DNA of 64,000 nucleotides from assembly GCA_016930085.1 (NCBI GenBank), contig JAFGHO010000104.1, positions 1 to 64,000 of the forward strand. The letters run 5' to 3'. The DNA comes from Spirochaetales bacterium (GTDB taxonomy: Bacteria > Spirochaetota > Spirochaetia > SZUA-6 > JAFGRV01). The notes under the pieces are model-generated. The model did no database searches. It was not told the origin of the DNA and saw only the letters and a program-made list of their open reading frames with translations. The translations under genes were made by a program, and so were the position numbers. Below, piece by piece: positions 12,286-55,999 of the stretch; position 1 is the first letter of the stretch, and every line of letters starts with the position of its first letter.

Positions 12286-14417
12286 ATCATTGCCTCCTTC
12301 ATCGCTTCGGCTCCCGCGGCGCGGGCGGTATCGTCGCCGGCGGCCATATTGAGATACCCGTATTTGTCCGCCAGGTTCCTGTCCAGCTTCGCGAGGGTTT
12401 TGTAACTGGTTTCGGCCTTTCTGTATTCGGCAAGCTCGAAATAGACGCGCGCCAGGCTGAGAACGACCACGGGATCGTTCGCCCGTTTCTTTTCTGCGCG
12501 TGTATAGTAATCAAGCGCTTTTTGAAAATCTTCTTTCAGAAAGGCGATATTGCCGAGGTTGATCAGGACCGCGTAGTGGTCTTCTTTTGCGAGGACTTTC
12601 GTGAACTGCTCGGCAGCCTTGTCATAGAAGCCGTATCGCGCGTAGAGGACGCCGAGGGCGTTCAGGTCCCGGATACTTCCTTTCGATTTTTTGATATCCT
12701 CTTCGAGTTTCGCGACCCTCGGGTAGAGGTACAGCTCGTAAAAGCGTTCGAGTTGTTCGCCGAACTCCTTCACCACCGCGGCTGCGGCCGGAAGGGAGAT
12801 GGATACCGCCTTGCCCGAAATCCCGACCGGTTCGTATGTCTGCCACGCCTCGCGAACTGGATACAACCGGGCCCCGCCCGATTTGGCGTGGTCGTTCCAT
12901 TGTTTCGAGCCGATCTGCCACGCCCTGACGAATCCCTCGTTGAAAACGGTGATCTCGAAGGGGCACCATGTCTTTTCATCGATAAAGATGAAATCCTTTG
13001 TATAATGGAAGCGTTTTTTCGCCTCCGCCGGGTCCATGTCCAGGGAAAAGGCGATAAAGATATGGCCGGGAACGGTGATAAAAGCCGTCTCGATGCCGAC
13101 CGATTCGAGAAGCGCGCAGTAGAGAATGGAGAGGTCGTCGCAGTCACCGGCCTTGTAATCGAGGGTCTGGCTGGGGAACTGGAGGTAATCGACAGCCGCC
13201 TTTTTCTTGGAAAACTCGGTATAGGGGGTCGAGGGATCGACGACGTAACTCATACCGAACAGCCTGAGTGCGCTGTGGAAGGCCATGCAGGTGACGAAAT
13301 TGTCGTCGAGCGCACCGGGGGCCTTGCCCTGGACCATGCTTTTAACGTTCTTCGAAAACCTGAGCACAGTGGGGTCCTTGAGACTGACGAACGCGGCGGC
13401 GCGCCTGTCGTCTTCCCAGGTCGTCGCGTTCCGGTCGTAAAGCCTCAAGGTTTGGACTTCCTCGTTCGAGTAATTGACGCCGGCGACGGTGGATTCGGTC
13501 ATGATATTGATCTGGACCTTTGTCGCCTCCGAAATATCGAGTACTTTTTCGTTGAACAGGGCGTACAGGAACACCTCCTGCTCCGCCCCACCCTTCAGGA
13601 AATCCAGTTCCCCGCACACTTTCGGGTTGTCCATATACTGATTGATAAAAACCTTCACTTTTACGTCTTCCATGGGTATTTTTCCCGTGTTTTTTACCGT
13701 TATTTTTCCGATCGGATTCACGTCATAGAACTTGAAAAAAACGGGAAACACGGGGTCGAATGAAATCTCGCCGTATACCATTTCCTTATAAGGTTCGTTC
13801 TGCGTACCGAAAATCTGCACGCTTTTTTGCGCCTGAAAATGATACGAGACACCGAGATTGAGCACGATATCGGAATACAGTCCGAAGAAATTACGGTAAG
13901 AGGCGTCGAGACCGATACCCATCGAAGGAACCGGCGTAAACCGGATATCACCCCCGATATCGATAAAGGGATTCTGTCCGCTGTTGTCACCCGTATCGAT
14001 ATCGAGAAATCCGTAGTAGTATCCGCCGTGGATATGCGCGCCGGCGAACAGGTTCGGAAGGATGCGGAAACTGCTTCCGACTCCCGCTTTGGGCGATATG
14101 AGGTACATCATCGCGCTGTCGAACGGGGCGTCGTCGGCGAGTTTGAGGGGTGTGACCCCGAATCCCGCTCCCCCTTCGAGAAACAGGAAGGGGAGTTGGG
14201 GAAAGGAGAACCGGCAAAGCAGCGATACGGTGCCGCCGAAATCGAAGGCGGAACCGTATTTCTCCCCGATCGGCATCGTGAATCCTGGAAGGATATGCAG
14301 GGAAAGCCCCGAATCTTCATAATCCGGCTGGGCCGGGAAGCCGGCACACGGAATGACGGAAAAAATGAGTATGAAAAAAAGAATTTTTTTAGAGAAAAAA
14401 AGTTTACGCATTTTCAT
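12273..14417 (-). CDS. Barrel/transglutaminase-like/TPR exported protein (paralogue A, catalytic residues kept)
   Basis: A 714-residue protein. A signal peptide (about 1-30) is followed by an outer-membrane-barrel-like region (30-195, alternating strands rich in G, F and Y), a beta-sandwich stretch (220-330), a transglutaminase-like domain (about 375-500) and TPR repeats (about 580-690, for example AEQFTKVLAKEDHYAVLINL). The transglutaminase core keeps Cys (GDCDDLSILYCALLE, about 425) and His (PGHIFIAF, about 450), so it may be a cysteine protease or crosslinking enzyme. It is first in a minus-strand operon with the FG-GAP lipoprotein and CBM9/barrel protein, and divergent from its paralogue at 14661. 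Confidence 0.8.
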   Translation of the reverse strand: MKMRKLFFSKKILFFILIFSVIPCAGFPAQPDYEDSGLSLHILPGFTMPIGEKYGSAFDFGGTVSLLCRFSFPQLPFLFLEGGAGFGVTPLKLADDAPFDSAMMYLISPKAGVGSSFRILPNLFAGAHIHGGYYYGFLDIDTGDNSGQNPFIDIGGDIRFTPVPSMGIGLDASYRNFFGLYSDIVLNLGVSYHFQAQKSVQIFGTQNEPYKEMVYGEISFDPVFPVFFKFYDVNPIGKITVKNTGKIPMEDVKVKVFINQYMDNPKVCGELDFLKGGAEQEVFLYALFNEKVLDISEATKVQINIMTESTVAGVNYSNEEVQTLRLYDRNATTWEDDRRAAAFVSLKDPTVLRFSKNVKSMVQGKAPGALDDNFVTCMAFHSALRLFGMSYVVDPSTPYTEFSKKKAAVDYLQFPSQTLDYKAGDCDDLSILYCALLESVGIETAFITVPGHIFIAFSLDMDPAEAKKRFHYTKDFIFIDEKTWCPFEITVFNEGFVRAWQIGSKQWNDHAKSGGARLYPVREAWQTYEPVGISGKAVSISLPAAAAVVKEFGEQLERFYELYLYPRVAKLEEDIKKSKGSIRDLNALGVLYARYGFYDKAAEQFTKVLAKEDHYAVLINLGNIAFLKEDFQKALDYYTRAEKKRANDPVVVLSLARVYFELAEYRKAETSYKTLAKLDRNLADKYGYLNMAAGDDTARAAGAEAMKEAMIWSE

Positions 14418-14601
14418 TACCCCCGTTAATGTAATACTGATTATGAGAAATGTTGATAGTTATTTTGAATGTTATAAAACATGTTTCTTCATTAAATATA
14501 TCCCCGAAACCGGATTATGCAAGTCTTTTTTTATTTTTTTAGGAAAAATATTCTTTTTTTTATATACTTCTCCATTATAACGATAAAAGGAGTCATTTTA
14601 T

Positions 14602-14630
14602 TTTACAATCGAAAAAAAATGTCTTATATT
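14602..14630 (+). promoter_or_regulatory. Promoter of paralogue B operon
   Basis: TTTACA (14602-14607), 17-bp spacer, TATATT (14625-14630), about 30 bp ahead of the ATG with an ACGGAGGACG ribosome binding site. It lies in the AT-rich 243-bp region between the two divergent paralogues, which must also hold the minus-strand promoter; I could not place that one. Confidence 0.5.
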
Positions 14631-14660
14631 TTATATTGATAGACGGAGGACGCATCATCG

Positions 14661-16709
14661 ATGAAATATAATGTATTCACGGGACTTTTATTTTTATTAC
14701 TCATGACAGCTGTGACGGTTGCCGCGCAAAGCGGCGGGATAACGAAAACCGGGGCTTCACTCGATATTTCCCTGCTTCCCGAGGCCACCATTCCGATATT
14801 GGGGTCGGGCGATATTTTCGAAATCGGCGTCGGCGGCAGGGTTGCCGTCCGCTTTTCTCCTGTTCCACTTTTCTTTTTCGATTTCGAAGGCGGCTATAAT
14901 TTTTCGCCCGTCAGGGCGGAGATGAGCGCTTCGCGGCAATGGGGAGGGGTCGGCGGCGGAATCGGTTTTACGGTATCTCCAGGCCTGACGGCCGGCGTCG
15001 TCGCCGGGGGAGGGGGGTTTTACACCTTTGTCAATGAAGACCCGGAGCAGAACGGCGGCCACGGTTATGCGGGGGGCGGTGTGTTTCTGGACTGGAAGAT
15101 GTTCAACCCGCTCCACCTGAAAGGCGAGGTCGGCTACCGTTATTTTTTCGGCTATGCCCATGAACTATCCGTATCGATCGGTCTGTCATATGCCATTGAC
15201 TTCGTTATCATAAAGGCGCTCGAACAGGGGGCCGTGACGATCGGTCCGGTATTCCCCGTCCTCATCAATACCTACGACAACACGCCGGTGGGAAGCACCG
15301 TGATCCGGAATAAGGAAAAATCGCCGGTGAAAGACCTTTCCGTTTCCTTGTACATACCGGCATATATGGACAAAGCAGTAAAATGTGCGGACATCAAACA
15401 GCTTGACGGCGGAGAAAGCATCGAGGTCGCCCTTTCGGGAAAATTTCGCGACAATCTTATGGGAGTCGAAGAGCTGTCAAAGGCGAAAACGGAGATCAGG
15501 GTATCGTATTCCTATGAAGGAAACAAGGTTTCGGAGGTTTTCAGGGGCTCGGCGGTCATCCATAACAGAAACAATATCCTGTGGGACAAACCCTCCAAAC
15601 TCGGATTGTTCGTTACCTCAGGGGATCCCCGTGTTTCCGCCTTTGCCCTCAAGGCAAGCGAAATCCCGGGCAATACGAATATCAACAATATCGATACGGT
15701 GATCTGCAAGGCGATGATCCTTTTTGAAAGCCTCAACATCCGCGGAATAGCCTCGACAGGCGAGTATCACATTTCAAAAACGGGCGGCGAACAGCTCGAC
15801 ACGGTGCTGTATCCATACCAGGTTCTTGAAACCGGGGTGTGCAACGCCGACGAGGCCGTCTTCCTGTATTGCGCCCTGCTCGAAGCCGCGGGGATTCCTT
15901 CGGCGATCATCCGGTTTCAGGACCGGATCATGCCCGCGTTCCTTCTCTCAGACAGTGCGGCTAAAGCGGACAAGATCTATTCACACCCCGGCGACCTGAT
16001 CGTGCGGGAGGAGGGCGTCTTTCTGCCCGTGGATACATCGGTCATGGATTCCGGGTTTCTCAGGGCCCTTCAATCAGGGGTAATGGCATGGAACAACGCG
16101 AGCCGGAACGCGGTATTGCTTCCCATTGAGGCGATGCAGCGGGAATTCCCGCCGCCGCCTTTAACCGGGAGCGCGGGGGAGACGGGAATCCCTTCCGCCG
16201 AGGCACTCGCGGCCGCCTTCGGGAAACGGCTCGATGAGTTTGTCGCCTATGAGATGGCCCCCCGTGTCGAAAAACTCGAGGCTGATGCGGCGAAGGCGAA
16301 AAACTCGGCAGTCGTCAGAAACCGGCTCGGCGTTCTCTATGCCGAATACGGCCGGCTCGAGAAGGCCATGGAAATTTTCAACGCGATCGTCTTGAAGGAA
16401 GAATATGTCCCCGCCCTCATCAATATGGGGACGGCTTATTATATGAAAGACGAACTGATCAAGGCGATCCCCTATTTCGAGCGCGCCCTCAAGATGGCGC
16501 CCCTCGAGCCGGTCGTTCTTCTCAGCCTCGCGATTATCAACCACCGGCTGGAAAATTACGGAAACGCGCGGGAAGCCTATAAAAAGCTCCAGAGTATCGA
16601 TCCCGAACTCGCCGAACAGTATTCGTATATCGAACTCAAGGGCGACGAGGCGAGGCTCGCCGCGGAAGTTAGCAGGGAACGGGAGAAAATAATCTGGATC
16701 AGTGAGTGA
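14661..16709 (+). CDS. Barrel/transglutaminase-like/TPR exported protein (paralogue B, catalytic His lost)
   Basis: A 682-residue paralogue of the divergent gene with the same order: signal peptide (1-22), barrel-like region (25-190), beta-sandwich (205-310), transglutaminase-like domain (about 350-480), TPRs (about 550-660). The core aligns as VCNADEAVFLYCALLEAAGI (Cys about 393), but where the partner has PGH this protein has QDR (about 418). The nucleophile Cys remains and the catalytic His is gone, so it is probably a non-catalytic or binding partner. It is first in a plus-strand group with the FecR-PEGA-PQQ and VWA lipoproteins. Confidence 0.8.
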   Translation: MKYNVFTGLLFLLLMTAVTVAAQSGGITKTGASLDISLLPEATIPILGSGDIFEIGVGGRVAVRFSPVPLFFFDFEGGYNFSPVRAEMSASRQWGGVGGGIGFTVSPGLTAGVVAGGGGFYTFVNEDPEQNGGHGYAGGGVFLDWKMFNPLHLKGEVGYRYFFGYAHELSVSIGLSYAIDFVIIKALEQGAVTIGPVFPVLINTYDNTPVGSTVIRNKEKSPVKDLSVSLYIPAYMDKAVKCADIKQLDGGESIEVALSGKFRDNLMGVEELSKAKTEIRVSYSYEGNKVSEVFRGSAVIHNRNNILWDKPSKLGLFVTSGDPRVSAFALKASEIPGNTNINNIDTVICKAMILFESLNIRGIASTGEYHISKTGGEQLDTVLYPYQVLETGVCNADEAVFLYCALLEAAGIPSAIIRFQDRIMPAFLLSDSAAKADKIYSHPGDLIVREEGVFLPVDTSVMDSGFLRALQSGVMAWNNASRNAVLLPIEAMQREFPPPPLTGSAGETGIPSAEALAAAFGKRLDEFVAYEMAPRVEKLEADAAKAKNSAVVRNRLGVLYAEYGRLEKAMEIFNAIVLKEEYVPALINMGTAYYMKDELIKAIPYFERALKMAPLEPVVLLSLAIINHRLENYGNAREAYKKLQSIDPELAEQYSYIELKGDEARLAAEVSREREKIIWISE

Positions 16710-43263: not shown

Positions 43264-43641
43264 ATGATCGTGCGTATTTTAATTATCGATGATTCAATGG
43301 TTATGCGTAACATCCATAAAAACATTCTCATTGAAAACAAGATCACCGAAGAAAGTTTTTTGGAAGCCCGTGACGGCACATCGGCTTTGATTATGGCAAA
43401 ACGCGAACCCATCGACATCTTTCTGGTCGATTGGAACATGCCCGGATTGAACGGCCTGCAGCTGATAAAAACGCTCCGGCAGATGGACAACTACAGGGAA
43501 ACACCCATCATCATGATCACGTCGGAAGCGGCAAAATACAATGTCATGGAAGCGGTGGAAGCCGGTGTTTCGGACTACATCGTAAAACCGATCAAGGGCC
43601 GTGTCCTCTGGGACAAAATCTCAAAATATTTCGGTGGATAG
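43264..43641 (+). CDS. cheY: CheY-like response regulator, single receiver domain
   Basis: 125 residues with a strong AAAAGGAGG ribosome binding site. Receiver features: acidic pocket in IIDDS (about 8-10), phospho-Asp in LVDWNMPGLNG (about 59), Thr/Ser in MITSE (about 89) and Lys in VKPI (about 110). It has no output domain. It opens the eight-gene signalling operon and is likely phosphorylated by the CheA-like kinase encoded two genes later and dephosphorylated by CheX. Confidence 0.92.
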   Translation: MIVRILIIDDSMVMRNIHKNILIENKITEESFLEARDGTSALIMAKREPIDIFLVDWNMPGLNGLQLIKTLRQMDNYRETPIIMITSEAAKYNVMEAVEAGVSDYIVKPIKGRVLWDKISKYFGG

Positions 43642-43651
43642 GAGGCAAAAT

Positions 43652-44116
43652 GTGAAAGCGCAATACATAAATCCGTTTCTGGAAGCTTCAATACATTTAT
43701 TCAAGGATTTTCTGAATGTAAAGCTGCGGTACCTGAAACCGTTCGTCAACTCGGACTCCCAGAACCTGAACGAGATCTCGGCAATTATTGGTTTGGCGGG
43801 CGATACAAAAGGCGCGGTTGTCCTGAGTTTTGAACGGGATACCGCGATCAAAATGGTCGCCCGTTTTTCAAAGAAGAACTATTTTGCCTTGAGCAGGGAG
43901 GTGATCGACGGTGTTGGGGAACTGGTGAACATTCTGGCGGGGAACGCGAAAAAAGATCTTCTGGATTTTCGTATTACCATCTCCCTGCCCGGCGTTATCA
44001 CGGGGAACAAATACAAGATCAACTGGCCGCAAAACATCCCGGTTATCACCATACCGTTCGAAAGCGAACTGGGTGCTTTTACCGTGAACGTTTCACTCAA
44101 AGACAAAAAAGACTGA
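43652..44116 (+). CDS. cheX: CheX-type CheY-P phosphatase
   Basis: 154 residues from GTG 43652; the nearby ATG at 43650 is immediately followed by TGA. GGAGG lies upstream. The conserved CheX/CheC motif ELVNILAGNAKK (about 91-102, the ExxN pair) is present, followed by PGVITGN. CheX dephosphorylates CheY-P in spirochaetes and Thermotoga. The 10-bp gap to cheY supports coupling. Confidence 0.88.
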   Translation: MKAQYINPFLEASIHLFKDFLNVKLRYLKPFVNSDSQNLNEISAIIGLAGDTKGAVVLSFERDTAIKMVARFSKKNYFALSREVIDGVGELVNILAGNAKKDLLDFRITISLPGVITGNKYKINWPQNIPVITIPFESELGAFTVNVSLKDKKD

Positions 44117-44162
44117 CGGACGATTATGAAGAGTGAACGATCAATTGTCGAAGGAGATGATT

Positions 44163-45782
44163 ATGTCAATAGAAAGCTTGTTTGCATTATCTAAGTTACC
44201 GGAAAAAAAGAAATGGGTATTCAGTGAGGAAGAGATCACGAAACTTTTCTGGAAATACAAGGGGCAGCTGCTCGAATACAAGAGAAATGCCGCGTTCTGG
44301 GCCGCGACAAACGAGAATTTGAAGACCGCCTATGAAACACTCGATGAACAGGAGCAGGCGCTCGAACGGGCATACAATCTGAATAAAAAATACCTCGACA
44401 ATATACAGGAAGGACTGCTGCTTATCGACAGGAATTTTATCATCCTGAGCCAGTATTCGACTTACCTCAAGTCATTATTCATGACCGACAAGATCGAGGG
44501 GGAATATATCATTGATTTTCTATTTCCGGACAAAAAGAAAAATATCCAGGAATGCATGGAACTGGAAAAGTATCTGACAATTCTTTTTCAGAACAAACAG
44601 GCCAGCATGGAAATGATCAATGAACTCAATCCCCTCATCGACAAGAAAATCCTCATCATGCGGGAGGGGCGTGAATATGAAAAGACCATCAATACCAGAT
44701 TTATCAGGATATACAAGGAAGAGGAGATCGAACACGTCATGATGATTTTCGAGGACAAGACGGAATCGATCAGAATGAAGAAGGAACTCGAAAAGGAAAA
44801 GTCGAGGAACAAGGCGGAACTCGACTCGATTCTCGCGATTCTTCGTGTGGGGCCGGACGCGTTCTTCGATTTTATAGAGGAGTCGAGCAGGATTCTGGAT
44901 TCGCTGAACAATCAGGTGCCGGATATCGATAAAAAGAATACACTCAATATGATGTTCAGGCAGATTCATTCGCTTAAAGGATCGGCCAAATATTTCGAAC
45001 TCAACCATATCGCCCATCTTTCTCACTCCCTCGAAGATGCGCTGTCCGGCTGTATAAAAGACGAGGGGTTGTGTACCACCGAAATCAAAAGAAAGATCAA
45101 CGCGATGATAGGCCACCTGTGGACCGAATTCCAGATTATCGACAAGCTGAATACGAGGTTTCAGATGTTCTATGAGCGGGCGGCCCAGCGTAACAATGAC
45201 AATGGGACGGTCAAGTTATCGGGTTTTTTCAATACACTCAAACGGATGACCAAAAACCTCGCGAAGGACCAGAGCAAGGAAGTGCAACTTCAAATCAAAA
45301 ATGATCTGAACGATTTTCCCTGTTTCAATCAATTGAAAACGCCCATCATACAGATAATCCGTAACGCAGTCTCTCACGGGATCGAGGATACATATGAGCG
45401 GTTGAGTCTTAAAAAAAAGCAGATAGGGAAAATCGATATGCGGTTTCATAAAGACGGGGACTCCTTTGTCATTGAAATAACCGATGACGGCCGGGGCCTT
45501 AATTTCGAGAAAATACGGGAAAAGGCGGTCGTAAAACACCTTATTCCGGACGATGTCAATTCAGTCCCCAAGGAAAAGCTGCTTCAGATCCTTTTTAATC
45601 CCGATTTCAGTTCACAAGAGGAGGCCAACGAAATATCGGGAAGGGGTTTCGGACTCGACATCGTCAAGAATGTTGTTTCGGAATTGCACGGCAAGGTGAC
45701 CGTTGCCACGAGGCCGAATATCGGGACCCGGTTTACCATTAAAATTCCCGATACGAAGGGGGGGGCGCGTCATGTCAAATGA
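44163..45782 (+). CDS. CheA-like Hpt/histidine kinase without CheW-like domain
   Basis: 539 residues from ATG 44163 (AAGGAG 6 bp ahead; an earlier GTG at 44133 is in frame). Order: shared N-terminal module (about 18-78, FWKYKG...KRN...ATNENLK), PAS-like region (80-205), a coiled-coil linker, an Hpt/P1-like domain with His269 in RQIHSLKGSAKYF, and a HATPase (about 350-530) with IRNAVSHGIE, DDGRGLNF and GRGFGLDIVKN. These match the P1 and P4 domains of CheA, but the P3 dimerisation and P5 (CheW-like) domains are not apparent. It is soluble and probably phosphorylates the operon's CheY. It overlaps the GRAS gene by 11 bp. Confidence 0.85.
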   Translation: MSIESLFALSKLPEKKKWVFSEEEITKLFWKYKGQLLEYKRNAAFWAATNENLKTAYETLDEQEQALERAYNLNKKYLDNIQEGLLLIDRNFIILSQYSTYLKSLFMTDKIEGEYIIDFLFPDKKKNIQECMELEKYLTILFQNKQASMEMINELNPLIDKKILIMREGREYEKTINTRFIRIYKEEEIEHVMMIFEDKTESIRMKKELEKEKSRNKAELDSILAILRVGPDAFFDFIEESSRILDSLNNQVPDIDKKNTLNMMFRQIHSLKGSAKYFELNHIAHLSHSLEDALSGCIKDEGLCTTEIKRKINAMIGHLWTEFQIIDKLNTRFQMFYERAAQRNNDNGTVKLSGFFNTLKRMTKNLAKDQSKEVQLQIKNDLNDFPCFNQLKTPIIQIIRNAVSHGIEDTYERLSLKKKQIGKIDMRFHKDGDSFVIEITDDGRGLNFEKIREKAVVKHLIPDDVNSVPKEKLLQILFNPDFSSQEEANEISGRGFGLDIVKNVVSELHGKVTVATRPNIGTRFTIKIPDTKGGARHVK

Positions 45783-46860
45783 CCTGATTTATTCCAAATT
45801 CAAGAAAGTATGCGATTCGTTCGTGCACAACGACAAAGCGGGTGCACGGAAACAGGCAAAGGAACTCGTCCTGGAACGTATGCCGGAGGATATCACGAAT
45901 GAGGCGCTGTTGTCCCACATATGTACCTCCTCACTCATCGCGCGGCTCGACAATGCATCGTATCAGATGAACAATCTCTATCTTACGCATTTCGAGATAC
46001 CCCAAATCGAACTCTTTTATAAAATGCACAGGGCATATCCGCAGGTCGCGGCCAGTCATTATATTGCGAATCAATTTATCGAGCAGATGATAGGGAACCT
46101 GTTGTCCGTCACCATATTCGATATCGGGATAGGCAAAGGGAAACAACTCGAATCCCTTCTCTACTCCCTCTGCGACCGGGGATATAATATCCGGAACGTC
46201 GTCATCATCGGTCTTGACCCGGATCCGGAAAACCTCTCGAGCTGCGAAAAGACCTTCATGCAGATGAACGGCAGGGTTTATTTCGACGTCGCCTTTCATC
46301 CCATTTGCGATCTGATCGAAAACCTCGACGAAAAGGATTTCGGCCATATTCGATCGATCGCGGAAGGTAATCTTGTCATCAATTCGGCATACGCCATGCA
46401 CCATGTGTCGCATCCGATAAACGATACGGAATACCGGACAAGACTTTTCGCGAAACTCAAGTCCCTCGATCCGCTATTGTTCACCCTCACGGAACCGAAC
46501 GCGGATCACGACAATGAATCGCTTTCGAGGAGGGCGGAAAACTGCTGGCGGCATTTTTCCGTGGTGTTCAATCTTGTCGACCGTTCGGATTTGAGTGAAG
46601 AACACAAACTCGTTATCAAGGATATGTTCTTCGGCAGGGAAATACGCGATATTTTCGGGGTCAGCGATCATTTGCGGAGTGAACGCCATGAAAGCACGGA
46701 AAGCTGGATGCTTCGGCTCAAGCGTGCGGGATTCCGGCCCTACGATTGCGGCCATATAACCGTCCGGCTTCCGGATTATTGCGAGGTGGATATCGGAAAG
46801 GGGCTTGTAAGACTCGGTTACATGACAACCCCGCTTATTGCCGTCTTCGCATACAGGTAG
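45772..46860 (+). CDS. Bacterial GRAS-domain protein (SAM-methyltransferase-like)
   Basis: 362 residues from ATG 45772 (overlapping the kinase stop by 11 bp). It has the pattern of plant GRAS proteins: HRAYPQVAASHYIANQFIEQM (about 86-106; plant 'YP..k..H..ANqaI'), a VHIID-like motif VTIFDIGIGKGKQLESLL (about 113-130) that forms the Rossmann SAM loop, a region around ENCWRHFSVVFNLVDRSD, then FFGREIRDIFGVSDHLRSERHES...WMLRLKRAGF (about 285-325), matching the plant 'lfGreI.nivA..G..R.ERhE....W..rm..aGF' segment. Bacterial GRAS proteins are proposed methyltransferases or small-molecule binders. Here it may methylate or sense a signal in the CheY/partner-switch circuit (inference). Confidence 0.8.
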   Translation: MSNDLIYSKFKKVCDSFVHNDKAGARKQAKELVLERMPEDITNEALLSHICTSSLIARLDNASYQMNNLYLTHFEIPQIELFYKMHRAYPQVAASHYIANQFIEQMIGNLLSVTIFDIGIGKGKQLESLLYSLCDRGYNIRNVVIIGLDPDPENLSSCEKTFMQMNGRVYFDVAFHPICDLIENLDEKDFGHIRSIAEGNLVINSAYAMHHVSHPINDTEYRTRLFAKLKSLDPLLFTLTEPNADHDNESLSRRAENCWRHFSVVFNLVDRSDLSEEHKLVIKDMFFGREIRDIFGVSDHLRSERHESTESWMLRLKRAGFRPYDCGHITVRLPDYCEVDIGKGLVRLGYMTTPLIAVFAYR

Positions 46861-46879
46861 ATTGAAAAAGGAGGATGCT

Positions 46880-47410
46880 ATGTGTGAATCAGAATTAAAG
46901 GTATTCGGCGCATTGATTATGGGATACGCGCAGGCTTGCCTGAATCTCAATATTATCGCGGGAAGGAAAGTATCGGAGTTTCTCGGAGATATTCAGCCGA
47001 CCGAATGGTACCCGCTCAGCCAATGGACCGAACTCGAAAAAATCGTCGTGCAATCCTACAGAAATGCGGACGCAATCCTCGAACGCGTCGGCATGGAGAT
47101 GATGCTTGCCTGGTACAATTTCGGTCCGGGGAAAGATATAATCGTGAAGGGAATCGATTTTCTCCATTTTCAGACGAGTTCCGAAGGGTACGCAAGTGTC
47201 GTCAAGGGTCCGGCGGAAAAGGTGGGTTCGTTTTCATTGAAATCGGTGGACGAGAAAGAAGGAAAGGCGGTCGTTCAAACGACAACGCCTTTTCACAGAA
47301 AAATGGAATGCGGCGTACTTATCGGCGGCATGAAGGCCCCCGGCGATATCGATTATATCGATGTCGTCAACGAGGGAGATTCCGATACGCTTGAAATCGA
47401 GTTTCACTAG
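46880..47410 (+). CDS. Small sensor-like protein, unknown family
   Basis: 176 residues from ATG 46880 behind AAAAGGAGG. An alpha/beta protein with AGRKVSEFL, LSQWTELEKIVVQSYRNADAILERVGMEMML (helical) and later beta strands (GVLIGGMKAPGDIDYIDV). The arrangement is loosely like bacterial V4R/HNOB-type ligand-binding domains, but no diagnostic cysteine or histidine pattern was found, so I leave it unnamed. The operon position between GRAS and the phosphatase suggests a sensory or adaptor role. Confidence 0.65.
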   Translation: MCESELKVFGALIMGYAQACLNLNIIAGRKVSEFLGDIQPTEWYPLSQWTELEKIVVQSYRNADAILERVGMEMMLAWYNFGPGKDIIVKGIDFLHFQTSSEGYASVVKGPAEKVGSFSLKSVDEKEGKAVVQTTTPFHRKMECGVLIGGMKAPGDIDYIDVVNEGDSDTLEIEFH

Positions 47411-47416
47411 ACGCCT

Positions 47417-48340
47417 ATGACATTGGATTCATTGCTCAACAGGGAAACACCTCCGCCTCCGGACGAGTTCAATCTGGATTACGAGGAGCTGGTCAGGTTT
47501 TTCTGGAAGTACAAGGGACTCGAACTCGAAGCGAAACGCAATACCGAATTCTGGGAGGCTACAAATGAAAATCTCAAGGACGCCTATCACCGGCTCGACA
47601 ATCAGGAACGGGAACTCGAACGCGTCTACGGCCTGGTTCAGGAAGACCTTTCTGTCGCCCACGGCATACAGGATGCACTGCTTCCCTCGTTGCAGACGGA
47701 AAAAGGCGTTCCCTTTGAAATCGCAATATACAACAAGCAGCTCAAGGAAGTGGGGGGCGATTACTTTGATTTTTTCAGGACGAAAAGCAATCATTTCGCG
47801 GTCGGCGTTTTCGATATTTCCGGACACGGCGTCTCCGCCGCGCTTATCATGGCATACCTGAAGTCGCAGTTCACGCTTGTCATGGAAAAGTGCGATTCAC
47901 CCGGGGAGATCGTCGAACAGGTCAACCTCCTCTCCATGGCGTTTTTCAGAAAAATAAAAAGGTATGCGGTCGTCAACCTGGTCGTGATAAGGCCCCGGCA
48001 TATCACGTATGTCTGCGCCGGGGGATACGGGATTCTCGTTCATGACGGTATATTATGCAGTTTCGCAAAAAATTCCAATTTTTTGGGTCTGAGGGAAAAG
48101 CCGTTTGACGATTTCACCCTTCCCGTCGTCCGGGGCGATCTTCTGGTACTCCATACCGACGGTATCATCGAGACACAGAACAATGACGGGGACGATTATT
48201 CCGCCGGCCGGCTGCACCGCCTTATCAGGGAGCACTGGAGGGACGATGTGAATGAAATACTCAATTGCTGCATACAGGATTACAATAAATTCAAAACCGG
48301 TGATCAGGACGACGTCACATTGATAATCATTCGTTTTTAG
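47417..48340 (+). CDS. SpoIIE/RsbU-type PP2C phosphatase with shared N-terminal module
   Basis: 307 residues. The N-terminal module (about 12-75, with RFFWKYKG, KRN, ATNENLK, LERVY) is clearly homologous to that of the kinase at 44163. The phosphatase domain (about 85-305) has GGDYFDFF (metal Asp), VFDISGHGVSAALIM, LHTDGIIE and DDVTLI, all typical of PPM/SpoIIE phosphatases that dephosphorylate STAS anti-anti-sigma factors. It likely acts on the slr1659/STAS-like protein made two genes downstream. Confidence 0.88.
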   Translation: MTLDSLLNRETPPPPDEFNLDYEELVRFFWKYKGLELEAKRNTEFWEATNENLKDAYHRLDNQERELERVYGLVQEDLSVAHGIQDALLPSLQTEKGVPFEIAIYNKQLKEVGGDYFDFFRTKSNHFAVGVFDISGHGVSAALIMAYLKSQFTLVMEKCDSPGEIVEQVNLLSMAFFRKIKRYAVVNLVVIRPRHITYVCAGGYGILVHDGILCSFAKNSNFLGLREKPFDDFTLPVVRGDLLVLHTDGIIETQNNDGDDYSAGRLHRLIREHWRDDVNEILNCCIQDYNKFKTGDQDDVTLIIIRF

Positions 48341-48349
48341 GAGGAGTCT

Positions 48350-48865
48350 ATGGAATCGACAAAAACAAAAAAAGCACCTGATATTTCGTTGGCTATTAAC
48401 GTCAAACCGCTCTCATCACTCTCGTATGGGGCATCCAGTCTGTTGGGAGATATCAATGCGCTGCTTGCGAAATTTTTTTATTCACAGACGACGGCAAAAA
48501 AGGTGTATGTGACGCTTTGCGAGCTTGTCTCGAATGTCGTCGATTATATCCGGTTTCCCGGCAGCAGTCTGAAAGTCGAACTGAAGTTTTCCGGTGAGGA
48601 TACGATTATAAAGGTAAAAAACAAGGTGGACAAAGACCGGTTTGAGAGTGTCAAAGCCCATATCGACAGTATCAGGGAATCGGGGGATCCCGTTACTTAT
48701 TTTTCGGAAACGATTTCAAAAAAGAGAAAGGAAGGGGTGACTCACGGCCTGGGACTTTTACGGCTTTTTATCGAGAGTTCGCCGCGGATTTCGGCTACAT
48801 TCAATGACAAAACGTCCTATATGACAATCGAAACAAAACTCGATACAAGGAGTCTGTTATGTTGA
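48350..48865 (+). CDS. RsbW-like anti-sigma kinase (HATPase)
   Basis: 171 residues behind TAGGAGG. GHKL-type ATPase with N-box ELVSNVVDY (about 63-71), and GLGLLRLF (about 140-147) for the lid glycines. Length and composition fit the serine kinases RsbW/SpoIIAB that bind and phosphorylate STAS partners; part of the D-box region (IIKVKNKVD) departs from the usual DxGxG, so ATP binding may be altered. The next gene overlaps by 7 bp. Confidence 0.78.
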   Translation: MESTKTKKAPDISLAINVKPLSSLSYGASSLLGDINALLAKFFYSQTTAKKVYVTLCELVSNVVDYIRFPGSSLKVELKFSGEDTIIKVKNKVDKDRFESVKAHIDSIRESGDPVTYFSETISKKRKEGVTHGLGLLRLFIESSPRISATFNDKTSYMTIETKLDTRSLLC

Positions 48866-49260
48866 TACTTACCTATGGAGAAATCATCGAAAGCGGCACA
48901 AGTGTTTTTACATCGGTCGCCTATTTCGATAAGGGAAAGCTTGTCCTTTCATTCAAGGGGGTGATCCGGGTTGATAATCCGGGGAAACAGCTTTTGCCGT
49001 TTATCATCGAACTCGCGCAAAAGCTGAGGAATAAGGAAATCGATTCCTGTGAACTTGATTTTTCCGAACTCACCTACTGCAACTCGAACGGGTTTTATTC
49101 ACTCATGGATATAGCGGAAACCATATACAAAAATACGCAAAGTCCGGTCACGGTGAAACGTCTGAAAAATGACGACTGGCAGCAGCAGATTCTTCCGATT
49201 CTTCTCAATCTCGATGAAAAACGGATCGCCGAAAGAACCATTGTCGTGGACCTGGATTGA
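48859..49260 (+). CDS. STAS-like (slr1659 superfamily) anti-anti-sigma protein
   Basis: 133 residues; ATG overlaps the kinase by 7 bp. Strand-helix pattern of STAS-like proteins, with ELDFSELTYCNSNGFYSLMDIAE (about 57-78), where a Ser/Asn stands at the phosphorylation site (YCNSNG). It resembles the slr1659-type anti-sigma antagonists. Last gene of the operon, before a strong terminator. Confidence 0.75.
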   Translation: MLILTYGEIIESGTSVFTSVAYFDKGKLVLSFKGVIRVDNPGKQLLPFIIELAQKLRNKEIDSCELDFSELTYCNSNGFYSLMDIAETIYKNTQSPVTVKRLKNDDWQQQILPILLNLDEKRIAERTIVVDLD

Positions 49261-49549
49261 TGAATGTCACGATACCGCATTCGGGGAACAACTCCTCCGG
49301 AGGCGGTTTTTAACGTTGTGGTTATGTGAAAGGATACTCCGTCGTGAGGTTGTCGAACCTCCGGGGGTATCCTTTCTTTTTCGATTATGCTTCGAAGGAA
49401 TGCCTTGTGCGCCGATAGTATTGAAACCAGGCGTGATTCTTTCAGGTGATACTCCTTGTATAATTATTTTCATACATTGTCTAATGCAAAAAAGTACGTG
49501 CTGCTTCGTTTAAATGCTAAACTCGACAGACTCCTAACGTTTTCTCCGA
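49261..49549. other. Intergenic stretch between the operon end and the 49585 promoter
   Basis: 289 bp; 324 bp separate the genes in all. It holds only the terminator at 49331-49382. No other gene or repeat is visible. Confidence 0.5.
49331..49382 (+). terminator. Intrinsic terminator of the signalling operon
   Basis: AGGATACTCC (49331-49340) pairs with GGGGGTATCCT (49363-49373), with an inner GAGGTT-GTCG-AACCTC hairpin, followed by a T-rich tract (TTTCTTTTT). It lies 70 bp after the last stop codon. Confidence 0.85.
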
Positions 49550-51481: not shown

Positions 51482-53158
51482 TTATTGACAGAATCCCTCG
51501 ATCAGGCCCACGTAATATTGGGCGATCAGCAGGGCGTCGATGATGTTGACCGACCCATTACAATCGGCATCTGCGCTTTCTTCATCGAAATTCGCCGGGT
51601 CGAGACCGACGTAGAACTGTGCCGTGAGGAGCGCGTCAACGATATCGATCGTTCCGCTTCCATTGACGTCGCCGCGTTCACCCGTGACAATGCCTGTCGG
51701 CGCGAGTGAAGGAACGACGGTTGTTTCGGGGGCCGGCGTCTCCGTCCCGGACGGGGGCGGTGACGATATTTCTCCTGACGACGCATTGAAAGAGATCGAC
51801 GCGCTCGAATGGTTGAGATACTTGTCATAGACAAAAATATCCGCGATGTGATCCCCTTCGAGATATTCGGCCGCATTCACGGTAATCGAATCGAAATTTT
51901 CCTTAATGACGGGGGTACGTAATCCGCCGTCGATGTAGACTTCCGCTTTCACCGTCTCCTGTCCCGCGGCAAGCGACATGTTCAGCATACCGTTTTCAAA
52001 CCGGGCCGAAGCGATGTCAAGCGACGGTGGTGTCGTGTCCGTTATCTGCGAACCGCCCGCCCACGGGCGGGTTCCCGCAAACTTCTTTTTCACATCCATG
52101 ACCCTGGCGCCCTTCACCGTGATGCAGGAGGCGTCGATGTTCCCGGCGGAACTCGAGTTGAGGTAGGTGAGATGGGGAACCGTACCGGGGTCCCAACCGA
52201 TCAGAAACGCCTCGACCGTATCAACCGCGACGGCGTCCGTTCCCGCCAGAATCAGCCTCATGTTCATCTGATCGGCTTCGAGGGAGAGTGTTGCTTCCGC
52301 CTGGCCCGGTCCGTTCTGAAAACCCTGGAGTCCGTCCATGACGACGAAATCGATCGGCTTGCAGAGATTCCAGTCATGGATCCATGCGTGGAGATCGGCG
52401 GAGAAATGACTTACCATATTCAACCTGAGGGGATCGTCTTCGGCGGTTCCGTAAATGTTCGCGGGCGGTCCGCCGATACCGACGTTTTTCAGCGCGCCGG
52501 TGATGCAGGCGCTCGAATGATTTTTCAGGGTGGGGACGCTGATGAGGACGTCGGCTTCGTAATATTTCCGGTTCATATAGTACGATGTATTGAGTCTTCC
52601 GTTGGGAAGCTCGACCTGCACGATACCGGGGGAATCGAAATCCTGCCAGCCGCCGCTGTCTTCCTCGATCGCGAGGATGCCGTCCGTCCCGGGAATATCG
52701 TCATGATTGTAGCGAAGCTGTTCCATGACGGGCCGTGTGGGGTACGCCGAACCCTCCATCACATATACCGTTCCGTCGGGATTGATTTCACGGACGAGTT
52801 CGACGATCGCCCGTACGACCCGGTAATCGGTCGTGATACCGTTGACTTCGGGGGGAAGTGGTCCCTCCACCGTTTCCATAATGACGAGATTCGGTTTAAT
52901 CACCACGCTGTCGCCGTTTTTCACGATCGCCTCCAGTCCGCCTGAGAGTTCGACGGCTTCTGCGACCAGCGCTTTAATGTCTGAGTACTCGAGATCGGCA
53001 GCCCGGGCTTTCCGTGCCTGAACGACCGCGACCGTCGACTGTGGAAGCTGAACGGCGCTGTATGTGCGGCTGAACATGCATATGATGATAATGGAGAGAA
53101 GACTAAAAAGGACAACCTGTTTTGTTCTCGAAACTCTTAAATCTCTTGAAACGTTCAC
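51482..53158 (-). CDS. Secreted DUF362 protein with C-terminal dockerin
   Basis: 558 residues from GTG 53158 behind AAAGGAG. An N-terminal signal/anchor (about 14-36) precedes a DUF362 domain (about 40-380: VVIKPNLVIMETVEGP, VRAIVELVREINPDGTVYVMEGS, ADVLISVPTLKNHSSACITGALKN, KPIDFVVMDGLQGFQNG). DUF362 is usually a cytoplasmic or iron-sulphur-linked domain. Next come a beta stretch and a P/T-rich linker, then a type-I-like dockerin (about 497-555) with two Ca-binding repeats (GDVNGSGTIDIVDALL and ADADCNGSVNIIDALLIAQYYVGL). The dockerin implies attachment to a cohesin protein such as the two encoded downstream. Confidence 0.85.
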   Translation of the reverse strand: MNVSRDLRVSRTKQVVLFSLLSIIIICMFSRTYSAVQLPQSTVAVVQARKARAADLEYSDIKALVAEAVELSGGLEAIVKNGDSVVIKPNLVIMETVEGPLPPEVNGITTDYRVVRAIVELVREINPDGTVYVMEGSAYPTRPVMEQLRYNHDDIPGTDGILAIEEDSGGWQDFDSPGIVQVELPNGRLNTSYYMNRKYYEADVLISVPTLKNHSSACITGALKNVGIGGPPANIYGTAEDDPLRLNMVSHFSADLHAWIHDWNLCKPIDFVVMDGLQGFQNGPGQAEATLSLEADQMNMRLILAGTDAVAVDTVEAFLIGWDPGTVPHLTYLNSSSAGNIDASCITVKGARVMDVKKKFAGTRPWAGGSQITDTTPPSLDIASARFENGMLNMSLAAGQETVKAEVYIDGGLRTPVIKENFDSITVNAAEYLEGDHIADIFVYDKYLNHSSASISFNASSGEISSPPPSGTETPAPETTVVPSLAPTGIVTGERGDVNGSGTIDIVDALLTAQFYVGLDPANFDEESADADCNGSVNIIDALLIAQYYVGLIEGFCQ

Positions 53159-53548
53159 TGTTACTCCTTTCGCTTTTTTATTATGTTTTTTTTATTCGTT
53201 TTGGCGATACAGGAAGTACCATGTCATGCATTCTTTCGTTTTTATAGTATCCCGGGAAGAAGCTTTTGTCAAGGTTGTTTTGGATCCCGCCGAAGCTTGC
53301 CGAATAACGATAAAGCCTGATTTGACAGGGGAAGGAGAATCATATATGATGAGGTAACGATAACGCAAACGGTATATGATGTTTAAAATGACTGTCCGGA
53401 TTGTATTGGATTTCACCCATTGATGCATCAGGGTTTCTCCGATGTCGTTGTACTACGATTCAACTTATAATCTTGCAATACAGCTTCCGTTGTGATATAA
53501 TTGAGTCATTTTGTTGAAACAATAAAATATTTTAAAAAGGAGAAAACA
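53159..53548. promoter_or_regulatory. Intergenic region between divergent dockerin genes, with PL11 promoter
   Basis: 390 bp without a gene. For the plus strand TTGCAA (53473-53478), 17-bp spacer and TATAAT (53496-53501) form a promoter within TTGTGATATAAT. AAAAAGGAG lies ahead of ATG 53549. TGATGCATCA, a 10-bp palindrome, lies near 53422. The minus-strand promoter could not be fixed. Confidence 0.55.
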
Positions 53549-55999
53549 ATGAAAAAAGGGAAAAATGTATTGTTGGCCGGGCTGACGATCGTCCTTCTCC
53601 TCTTCGTCGCGGGGGCGGCAGGCGCACAGCGCCAGGCGGAGAGACTCAACCGCGGACTTGTTGCTGTGTCGTCCGGGGGCGGATATTTTCTGTCCTGGCG
53701 TCTTTTCGGGGATGAATCCCTTGATACGGGATTCAATGTATATAAAGGTTCGACAAAGCTCAACTCCTCTCCGGTTACGAATGCCACCTGCTATCAGGAT
53801 GCAAGCGGGGGAAGCGGGACGTACACCGTACGGGCCGTAGTGAACGGACAGGAACAGGCGGCAAGCGAGGCCGCCAGGGTTCTTTCGACCAATTATCTCT
53901 CCATATCCGTGAATGTCCCCTCCGGGCATGAACCAAACGACGCCAGCGTCGGGGACCTCGACGGTGACGGAGAATACGAGATCGTGCTGAAGGTGGACGC
54001 GACAAACGCCAAGGACAATTCGCAGTCGGGGGTGACGGATGTGGTGTATCTCGATGCCTACAAACTCGATGGAACACGGATGTGGAGCATCAATCTGGGA
54101 AGAAACATCCGCGCCGGCGCCCATTACACCCAGTTTATGGTGTATGACCTCGACGGCGACGGGCTTGCGGAGGTCGCCTGCAAGACGGCCGACGGTACAA
54201 GGGATGGTGCCGGTAACGTCATAGGGGACGCGAACGCCAATTACGTGAACTCCGACGGTTATATTCTTTCCGGTCCGGAGTTTCTCACCGTATTCGACGG
54301 CCGGACGGGACGTGCCCTGTCCACGGTCGATTATCTGCCCGCCCGCGGGAATGTTTCCGATTGGGGAGACAGCTACGGGAACAGGGTGGACCGTTTTCTC
54401 GCGTGTATCGCCTATTGCGACGGTTCGAATCCCTCTCTGGTCATGTGCCGCGGCTATTACACGAGAACGGTGCTGGTGGCGTGGGATTTCCGGAACGGAA
54501 ACCTCTCGCACCGGTGGACCTTTGACAGCAACAGTAACACCTCGTATGCGGGACAGGGAAATCACAACCTGAGTGTCGCGGATGTGGATGGGGACGGCAG
54601 GGACGAAATCGTCTATGGATCGTGCTGTATCGACGATAACGGAACCGGCCTCTGGAACTCCCGGCTCGGACACGGCGATGCGATGCATTTGAGTGATATC
54701 GATCCGAACAGATCGGGACTGGAAGTGTGGGGTATTCATGAAGGCGACGGCACGCCCGGTTCCGCGCTGCTCGATGCGCGAAGCGGTTCGATCATATGGC
54801 AGACCGGTAACGCCGATGTGGGCCGGGGCTGCGCCGGGGACCTCACCGCATCGTATCGCGGTATGGAATGCTGGGGTGGGACGAGCGGTCTCCGTACATG
54901 CACGAACGGAAGCGCCGGAAACTCGCCCGCATCCTCCAATTTCGTCGTCTGGTGGGACGGGGACCTGCTCCGCGAACTTCTCGACGGCACATCGATCACA
55001 AAATACGGCGGCTCCACCCTTCTTTCGGCAAGCGGGTGCTCCTCGAACAATGGAACCAAATCGACACCCCGCCTTCAGGCCGATATCTGGGGCGACTGGC
55101 GGGAAGAGGTGATCTGGAAAGCGGGAAACACCCTTCGCATCTATACGACGACCGCAACGACGAACTACCGCTTTCATACTCTCATGCACGATCCCGTGTA
55201 CCGGCTCGGGATCGCCTGGCAGAACGTGGCGTACAACCAGCCGCCGCACACGAGTTATTTCCTCGGCGACGGGATGGGAACCCCTCCGCAGCCGAACATA
55301 CGGTACGCGGGCGGGGGCGCCACAAGTCCTCCGAGCGAACCGACACCGACCCCGGAACCAACCCCCACTCCCGAAGTGCTCGTACCGGGGGTAACCTACA
55401 ACCTTCAGGCGGAAAACGCTTATATGTCCAATGGAACGATCGACACGGAACATTCCGGCTATACCGGAAGCGGCTACGCGAATACCGCGAATGAATCCGG
55501 CGCTTACATCGAATGGACGGTTTCGGTAGGTTCCAACGCGGATGCGAACCTCGGATTCGTGTATGCCAATGGCGGGGACAGCGACAGGCCGTGCCGCCTT
55601 CTTATAAACGGCCAGACATGGGACGAACTCCCCTTTGCCCCTACCGGGGAGTGGACCGGTTGGTCGACCGTTTCCATGACGGTTCCCGTCTATACCGGGA
55701 CCGTTACGATCCGGTTGTCGGCTACGGGAAGTGAAGGGGCGCCCAACATCGACCGGATGGATATCACCCTGCAAAGCGGATCAGTGACAACCCCGCCCCA
55801 GGAAACAAAGGGGGATGCAAACGGGGACGGCGCGATTAATATCGTCGACGCATTGGTGACCGCCCAATATTATGTGGGATTGTCTCCAAGCCCGTTCAGT
55901 GTTACCTCAGCCGATGCAAATTGCGACGGTAATGTTAATATTGTCGATGCGTTATTAATCGCTCAGTATTACGTCGGCCTCATCGACAGGTTCTGTTAG
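53549..55999 (+). CDS. Rhamnogalacturonan lyase (PL11) with CBM35 and dockerin
   Basis: 816 residues from ATG 53549. Signal peptide (about 1-26), PL11 catalytic propeller (about 30-590: ERLNRGLVAVS, VGDLDGDGEYEIVLKVDA, TQFMVYDLDGDGLAEVACKTADGT, HLSDIDPNRSGLEVW, DIWGDWREEVIW), a P/T linker, a CBM35-like module (about 625-755: LQAENAYM, YIEWTVSVGS) and a dockerin (about 755-815: GDANGDGAINIVDALVTAQYYVGL, ADANCDGNVNIVDALLIAQYYVGL). PL11 enzymes cleave the rhamnogalacturonan I backbone of pectin by beta-elimination. Ca-binding DxDxDG loops are visible in the propeller. Ends in an intrinsic terminator. Confidence 0.92.
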   Translation: MKKGKNVLLAGLTIVLLLFVAGAAGAQRQAERLNRGLVAVSSGGGYFLSWRLFGDESLDTGFNVYKGSTKLNSSPVTNATCYQDASGGSGTYTVRAVVNGQEQAASEAARVLSTNYLSISVNVPSGHEPNDASVGDLDGDGEYEIVLKVDATNAKDNSQSGVTDVVYLDAYKLDGTRMWSINLGRNIRAGAHYTQFMVYDLDGDGLAEVACKTADGTRDGAGNVIGDANANYVNSDGYILSGPEFLTVFDGRTGRALSTVDYLPARGNVSDWGDSYGNRVDRFLACIAYCDGSNPSLVMCRGYYTRTVLVAWDFRNGNLSHRWTFDSNSNTSYAGQGNHNLSVADVDGDGRDEIVYGSCCIDDNGTGLWNSRLGHGDAMHLSDIDPNRSGLEVWGIHEGDGTPGSALLDARSGSIIWQTGNADVGRGCAGDLTASYRGMECWGGTSGLRTCTNGSAGNSPASSNFVVWWDGDLLRELLDGTSITKYGGSTLLSASGCSSNNGTKSTPRLQADIWGDWREEVIWKAGNTLRIYTTTATTNYRFHTLMHDPVYRLGIAWQNVAYNQPPHTSYFLGDGMGTPPQPNIRYAGGGATSPPSEPTPTPEPTPTPEVLVPGVTYNLQAENAYMSNGTIDTEHSGYTGSGYANTANESGAYIEWTVSVGSNADANLGFVYANGGDSDRPCRLLINGQTWDELPFAPTGEWTGWSTVSMTVPVYTGTVTIRLSATGSEGAPNIDRMDITLQSGSVTTPPQETKGDANGDGAINIVDALVTAQYYVGLSPSPFSVTSADANCDGNVNIVDALLIAQYYVGLIDRFC

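Follow-up and report, generated by a model that had tools for sequence, protein, structure and literature searches.

It is widely accepted that the GRAS genes of plants arose by transfer from soil bacteria. Bacterial GRAS proteins and their kinship to methyltransferases were reportedly described in 2012 by Zhang, Iyer and Aravind, who are said to have proposed that these proteins act as small-molecule methylases. In our literature search, we found no paper in which the function of a bacterial GRAS protein was tested, nor any linking GRAS to SpoIIE or to Nannocystis. Amongst partner switches, SiaABCD from Pseudomonas aeruginosa provides the relevant precedent: here, the phosphorylation of SiaC is balanced by SiaA and SiaB, and the cyclase SiaD is activated by SiaC (PMC7647112, PMC8457831). 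The window analysed here, a stretch of 64,000 nucleotides from a Spirochaetales bacterium, contains a GRAS gene within a series of eight ORFs (43264–49260) that all lie on the forward strand and either overlap slightly or are separated by no more than about 20 bases.

The GRAS ORF (45772–46860, + strand) encodes a protein of 362 amino acids with the N-terminus MSNDLIYS, in which all motifs quoted by the initial annotation (HYIANQ, FDIGIGKG, FFGREI, ERHE and RAGF) were present. A Pfam HMM search matched this protein to PF03514 with 118.8 bits (cut-off 27, E 3e-34), the only such match in the window's genome, and alignment to plant RGA placed FDIGIGKGKQ, FFGREIRDIF and ERHE against their counterparts, with the motifs of the VHIID and PFYRE regions in order. 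Using the single sequence as query, the top solved structure was SCARECROW (E 1e-13), and a 19-row GRAS profile retrieved DELLA RGA and SCL3 at about 4e-24. The AlphaFold2 model (pLDDT 87.6) matched plant GRAS structures best, with Z scores of 34–37.5 across 336–353 residues (37.5 to SCL3) and a large gap to ordinary methyltransferases at 18.5 or less: the similarity is hence not merely that of a generic class I methyltransferase, and the model and the plant structures agree along the entire fold, helical cap included. As for the C-terminal SAW region, the PF03514 match stops at profile position 330 of 374; the structural alignment reaches the C-terminus. Membership of the GRAS domain family, as initially annotated, is thus supported by both the sequence and the predicted structure. 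Weak Pfam and PDB matches to this protein or to the product of the following gene (Peptidase_U32, CPSase, jacalin) were dismissed as chance.

Retention of a SAM-type loop in the window protein is likewise supported by alignment and model. Motif I ([DE]-[IL]-G-x-G-x-G) and the acidic residue after strand 2 are retained in almost all GRAS proteins found in the gene cassette described below, whereas both the motif I glycines and this acid have been lost from the two plant sequences used for comparison (RGA and SCR); NxxxxxHH and EPxxxH are also near-invariant in the cassette clade. One spirochaete paralogue within this clade (L010) displays an altered SAM loop (DIGIGQCLQ) and has no adjacent copy of the gene that follows GRAS in the window. 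The nearest non-GRAS structural neighbours of the model are mostly small-molecule methyltransferases. The predicted role of GRAS is the SAM-dependent methylation of a small molecule.

Upstream of GRAS, the operon encodes a CheY-like single-domain response regulator (43264–43641, +; Pfam Response_reg 89.8 bits; conserved in L015/L018 and L014/L035), a CheX-like CheY-P phosphatase (43601–44116, +; Pfam CheX 77.9 bits, cut-off 27), the true start of which probably lies further inside the ORF, near 43650, and a CheA-like kinase (44133–45782, +). The latter combines Hpt (45.9 bits) and HATPase_c (64.3 bits) domains, keeps its HS.KG motif and N/G boxes in 4 homologues and exhibits an N-terminal module that we term FWK (about 44223–44387, +; 100.7 bits); no CheW-type C-terminal domain was found in it with Pfam. 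The GRAS ATG overlaps the end of this ORF by 11 bp, in agreement with the translational coupling previously noted, and is preceded by the G-rich stretch GAAGGGGGGG. Downstream, AAAGGAGG precedes the ATG at 46880 of a gene that we refer to as ORF47 (46880–47410, +), followed by a SpoIIE-type PP2C phosphatase (47417–48340, +; Pfam SpoIIE 87.5 bits) that also carries an N-terminal FWK module (about 47471–47641, +; 103.7 bits). Its metal-binding Asp motifs (VGGDY, FDISGHGV, TDG and DD) are conserved across the 21 rows of the cassette alignment.

The last two genes encode a putative kinase of the DUF6272/slr1658/SiaB-like type (48350–48865, +) and a putative STAS/slr1659-like phosphoacceptor (48859–49260, +), assignments that draw on weak or sub-threshold HMM matches together with motifs. 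In the case of the kinase, the Pfam DUF6272 match is weak (28.3 bits, cut-off 26.6) and those to the NCBIfam slr1658 superfamily (E 5e-10) and SiaB_fam_kinase (20.6 bits, cut-off 85) fall below the respective cut-offs, and the E/N box and GLG are conserved in 21 cassettes. For the STAS-like protein, STAS_2 (E 8.5e-4) and the slr1659 superfamily (E 1e-7) both remain below cut-off; CNSNGFY is conserved in 21 rows, with CNSNG invariant, making its serine a candidate phosphoacceptor residue. A pattern scan revealed a terminator-like hairpin with T run directly after STAS (49280–49301, +). The genome of the window contains a second, higher-scoring DUF6272 gene (L090; G000:C125:31151-31567), and the organism may hence possess another switch of this type. 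Further downstream in the window, two ORFs on opposite strands (51482–53158 and 53501–55999) end in paired dockerin-like repeats (e.g. GDVNGSGTIDIVDALLTAQFYVGL), a feature that seems out of the ordinary in a spirochaete.

ORF47, placed between GRAS and SpoIIE, had been overlooked by the initial annotation, and yet it is the closest genomic partner of GRAS. It encodes a domain of 176 amino acids with no match in Pfam or NCBIfam, the AlphaFold2 model of which (pLDDT 88.9) adopts a predicted H-NOX/TRAPP (Bet3) fold: the match to H-NOX (4u99) reaches Z 14.0 over 161 of 176 residues, and that to TRAPP/Bet3 a Z of about 10. Proteins known to have this fold bind heme in the case of H-NOX and fatty acyl chains in that of TRAPP/Bet3. 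At the level of sequence profiles there was no PF07700 match to ORF47 and the hhalign probability to H-NOX was about 0.1, and the 20-member ORF47 alignment contains no invariant or nearly invariant histidine that could serve as proximal heme ligand; ORF47 was accordingly rejected as a true H-NOX protein, even though the fold agrees. Ligand binding is read here from the fold, since H-NOX similarity is not detectable in the sequence, and on the basis of the model ORF47 is a probable ligand sensor. In two relatives, ORF47 forms the N-terminal part of a fusion protein, as ORF47-FWK-GGDEF (L045, 9239–10549) and as ORF47-FWK-GAF-PAS (L043, 7611–9191). In both fusions it thus precedes FWK and is laid out like a sensory input domain, which suggests that ORF47 is a portable sensor domain.

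Comparison of related loci revealed that GRAS, ORF47, SpoIIE/PP2C, SiaB/slr1658-like kinase (DUF6272) and STAS follow one another in identical order. Spirochaetota and Myxococcota together contribute 20 complete loci (window, L014/L035, L015/L018, L016/L020, L022, L023, L025–L034, L075, L077, L080 and L081), which do not represent 20 independent events, as several Nannocystis loci are closely related. Not counted amongst these are L044, in which GRAS is cut by the contig end, as well as L011 and L012, where the contig ends right after GRAS-ORF47. The named hosts are MAGs of Spirochaetales and of Myxococcota, together with several species of Nannocystis. In the tree, the GRAS proteins encoded by cassettes group in a single clade (support 96/99) that also includes the divergent, long-branched L017, and other myxobacterial GRAS proteins fall outside this clade and lack the cassette. 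In the window's family, CheY-CheX-CheA come before the cassette. CheA is encoded directly upstream at four loci (window, L014, L015 and L013), the first three of which also have CheY and CheX. Most cassettes lack CheA/CheX genes: GRAS-ORF47-PP2C-kinase-STAS makes up the invariant core, with the chemotaxis-like genes as the variable part, and a chemotaxis context was therefore rejected as the core. A class III nucleotide cyclase gene directly follows STAS in L016/L020, L022, L023, L025–L031 and L034, which makes a second-messenger output more likely than anti-sigma control.

Several GRAS proteins from this survey deserve mention in their own right. In L077, a second GRAS protein is encoded soon after the cassette (12899–15298), in a frame of 799 amino acids with a C-terminal TerB-like domain. 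Two Myxococcota GRAS proteins outside the cassette (L073, 8503–10842; L074, 8542–9822) score about 238–240 bits against the Pfam model, twice the value of the window protein, and are candidate relatives of the bacterium that passed GRAS to plants. The divergent GRAS gene of L017 (2–3409), from the window's own family, adjoins an FrsA/dienelactone-hydrolase-like esterase and an ORF reading like an AMP-dependent ligase, a context that looks biosynthetic.

In order to analyse how specific this association is, PF03514 and an ORF47 profile were searched separately against 296 genomes of the phylum, and matched an identical set of 4. Random placement would produce this co-occurrence with a probability of 3e-9, a value that ignores linked inheritance and is to be read as evidence of co-transfer rather than of four independent events; some of the sequences used to seed the ORF47 profile, in addition, came from these genomes. 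The FWK module (about 55 amino acids, coiled-coil-like, with the pattern FWKYKG...RN..FW.ATNENL..AY..LD.QE) was found in 3 of the 296 genomes, all amongst the 4 with GRAS and ORF47, and its only two copies in the window's genome both lie in the GRAS operon, one in the CheA-like kinase and one in the PP2C. DUF6272 proteins, on the other hand, are common: 26 of the 149 genomes analysed from the phylum encode them, usually in the absence of GRAS, and several of these proteins adjoin PP2C and cyclases, and so the PP2C-kinase-STAS trio was rejected as GRAS-specific. The narrow distribution of GRAS, ORF47 and FWK when compared to the common DUF6272 thus indicates that these three constitute a specific layer on a generic switch.

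Our preferred reading, to which we assign a probability of roughly 0.4, is that the cassette is a GRAS-containing Sia-type partner switch in which GRAS acts by methylation of a small molecule, the result is sensed by ORF47 and the switch is set in response. We infer each step from the architecture, the predicted folds and the motifs described above. GRAS would methylate the small molecule in a SAM-dependent manner, and ORF47 would bind either the substrate or the methylated product; the signal would then pass from ORF47 via the coiled-coil-like FWK module to the PP2C and, in the window's family, also to the CheA-like kinase. Phosphorylation of the serine in CNSNG would be set jointly by PP2C and the SiaB-like kinase, and free STAS would drive the output, probably the class III nucleotide cyclase where such a gene follows STAS; in the window operon, the output may run via CheA-CheY-CheX. 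In a more specific form, GRAS makes or removes a hormone-like molecule that is read by ORF47 as a heme-less receptor of H-NOX fold and relayed through the FWK stalk to the phosphatase/kinase switch, which would give bacteria an equivalent of the hormone signalling linked to GRAS; we consider this possible, albeit doubtful.

Other readings of GRAS need to be weighed against this small-molecule scheme. The intact SAM-type loop would also suit a CheR-like protein methyltransferase that modifies ORF47, or else the FWK stalk carried by kinase and phosphatase, and so tunes the switch in the manner of chemotaxis receptor methylation. Coupling of GRAS to the CheA-like kinase, the nearby CheX gene and the tight pairing with ORF47 would all suit such a role, but the preponderance of small-molecule enzymes amongst the nearest non-GRAS structures, together with the rarity of CheA/CheX in other cassettes, makes it unlikely. 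Plant GRAS proteins are established protein-interaction hubs, and as the window protein displays their complete fold down to the helical cap, it could instead be a non-catalytic adaptor, signalling through protein contact with a metabolite or SAM as its ligand; the SAM-loop glycines and strand-2 acid, which are kept across the clade but have disappeared from the two plant sequences compared (RGA and SCR), render this improbable.

The remaining alternatives concern the partners of GRAS. The initial annotation placed the gene between CheY/CheX and SpoIIE/RsbW/STAS genes and linked GRAS to phosphotransfer and anti-sigma control. The flanks were indeed found, and the neighbourhood survey confirmed that the operon association is real and recurs in both phyla; the kinase-like protein, however, resembles the DUF6272/slr1658/SiaB type, and anti-sigma control is not supported. 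Control of a sigma factor via an RsbW-type anti-sigma kinase would be compatible with the layout, as PP2C, HATPase-like kinase and STAS also make up Rsb systems. There is, however, no sigma factor gene within the window operon, the kinase matched DUF6272/slr1658/SiaB models with no RsbW model reported, and STAS is followed by a class III cyclase in other lineages: we thus consider this proposal very unlikely. Least of all do we expect ORF47 to be a heme-based gas sensor to which GRAS is incidental, as the fold match to H-NOX, high as it is, comes without the conserved histidine, the PF07700 match or the profile similarity of a true H-NOX protein.

The present analysis establishes the predicted fold of ORF47, the FWK module and the cross-phylum cassette, and thereby defines two previously unnamed domains, ORF47 and FWK. 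As the five-gene context is fixed and present in cultivable Nannocystis, it provides defined partners, a candidate for the receptor and a biochemical readout in the form of STAS phosphorylation and cyclase activity, and hence makes the ancestral function of GRAS testable; if the hormone-like version were true, the linkage of GRAS to such signalling would have a bacterial counterpart. Comparison with known systems places the locus as follows. The window protein resembles plant GRAS (SCL3, 6kpb; SCL7, 5hyz; SCR/SHR, 5b3g/5b3h; RGA, 9lum) in PF03514, fold, PFYRE region and RVERHE-like motifs, but differs from the plant sequences compared in keeping the SAM loop and strand-2 acid and in residing in a phosphorelay/partner-switch operon; like the bacterial GRAS proteins reportedly described in 2012, it has an intact methyltransferase site. 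ORF47 is similar to H-NOX and TRAPP-Bet3 proteins in predicted fold, yet is distinguished from H-NOX by its sequence and the lack of a conserved histidine ligand. The upstream genes are akin to a chemotaxis-type CheA-CheY-CheX phosphorelay in their Hpt and HATPase kinase, receiver and CheX phosphatase, although the kinase carries FWK and has no recognised CheW-type domain. The cassette resembles SiaABCD in combining a PP2C phosphatase with a putative SiaB-like kinase and a putative STAS-like phosphoacceptor, to which several relatives add a cyclase gene immediately downstream; the cyclase of the relatives is, however, a class III nucleotide cyclase and not a diguanylate cyclase, the window operon contains neither type, and the PP2C of the cassette carries the FWK module, with GRAS and ORF47 added to the switch.
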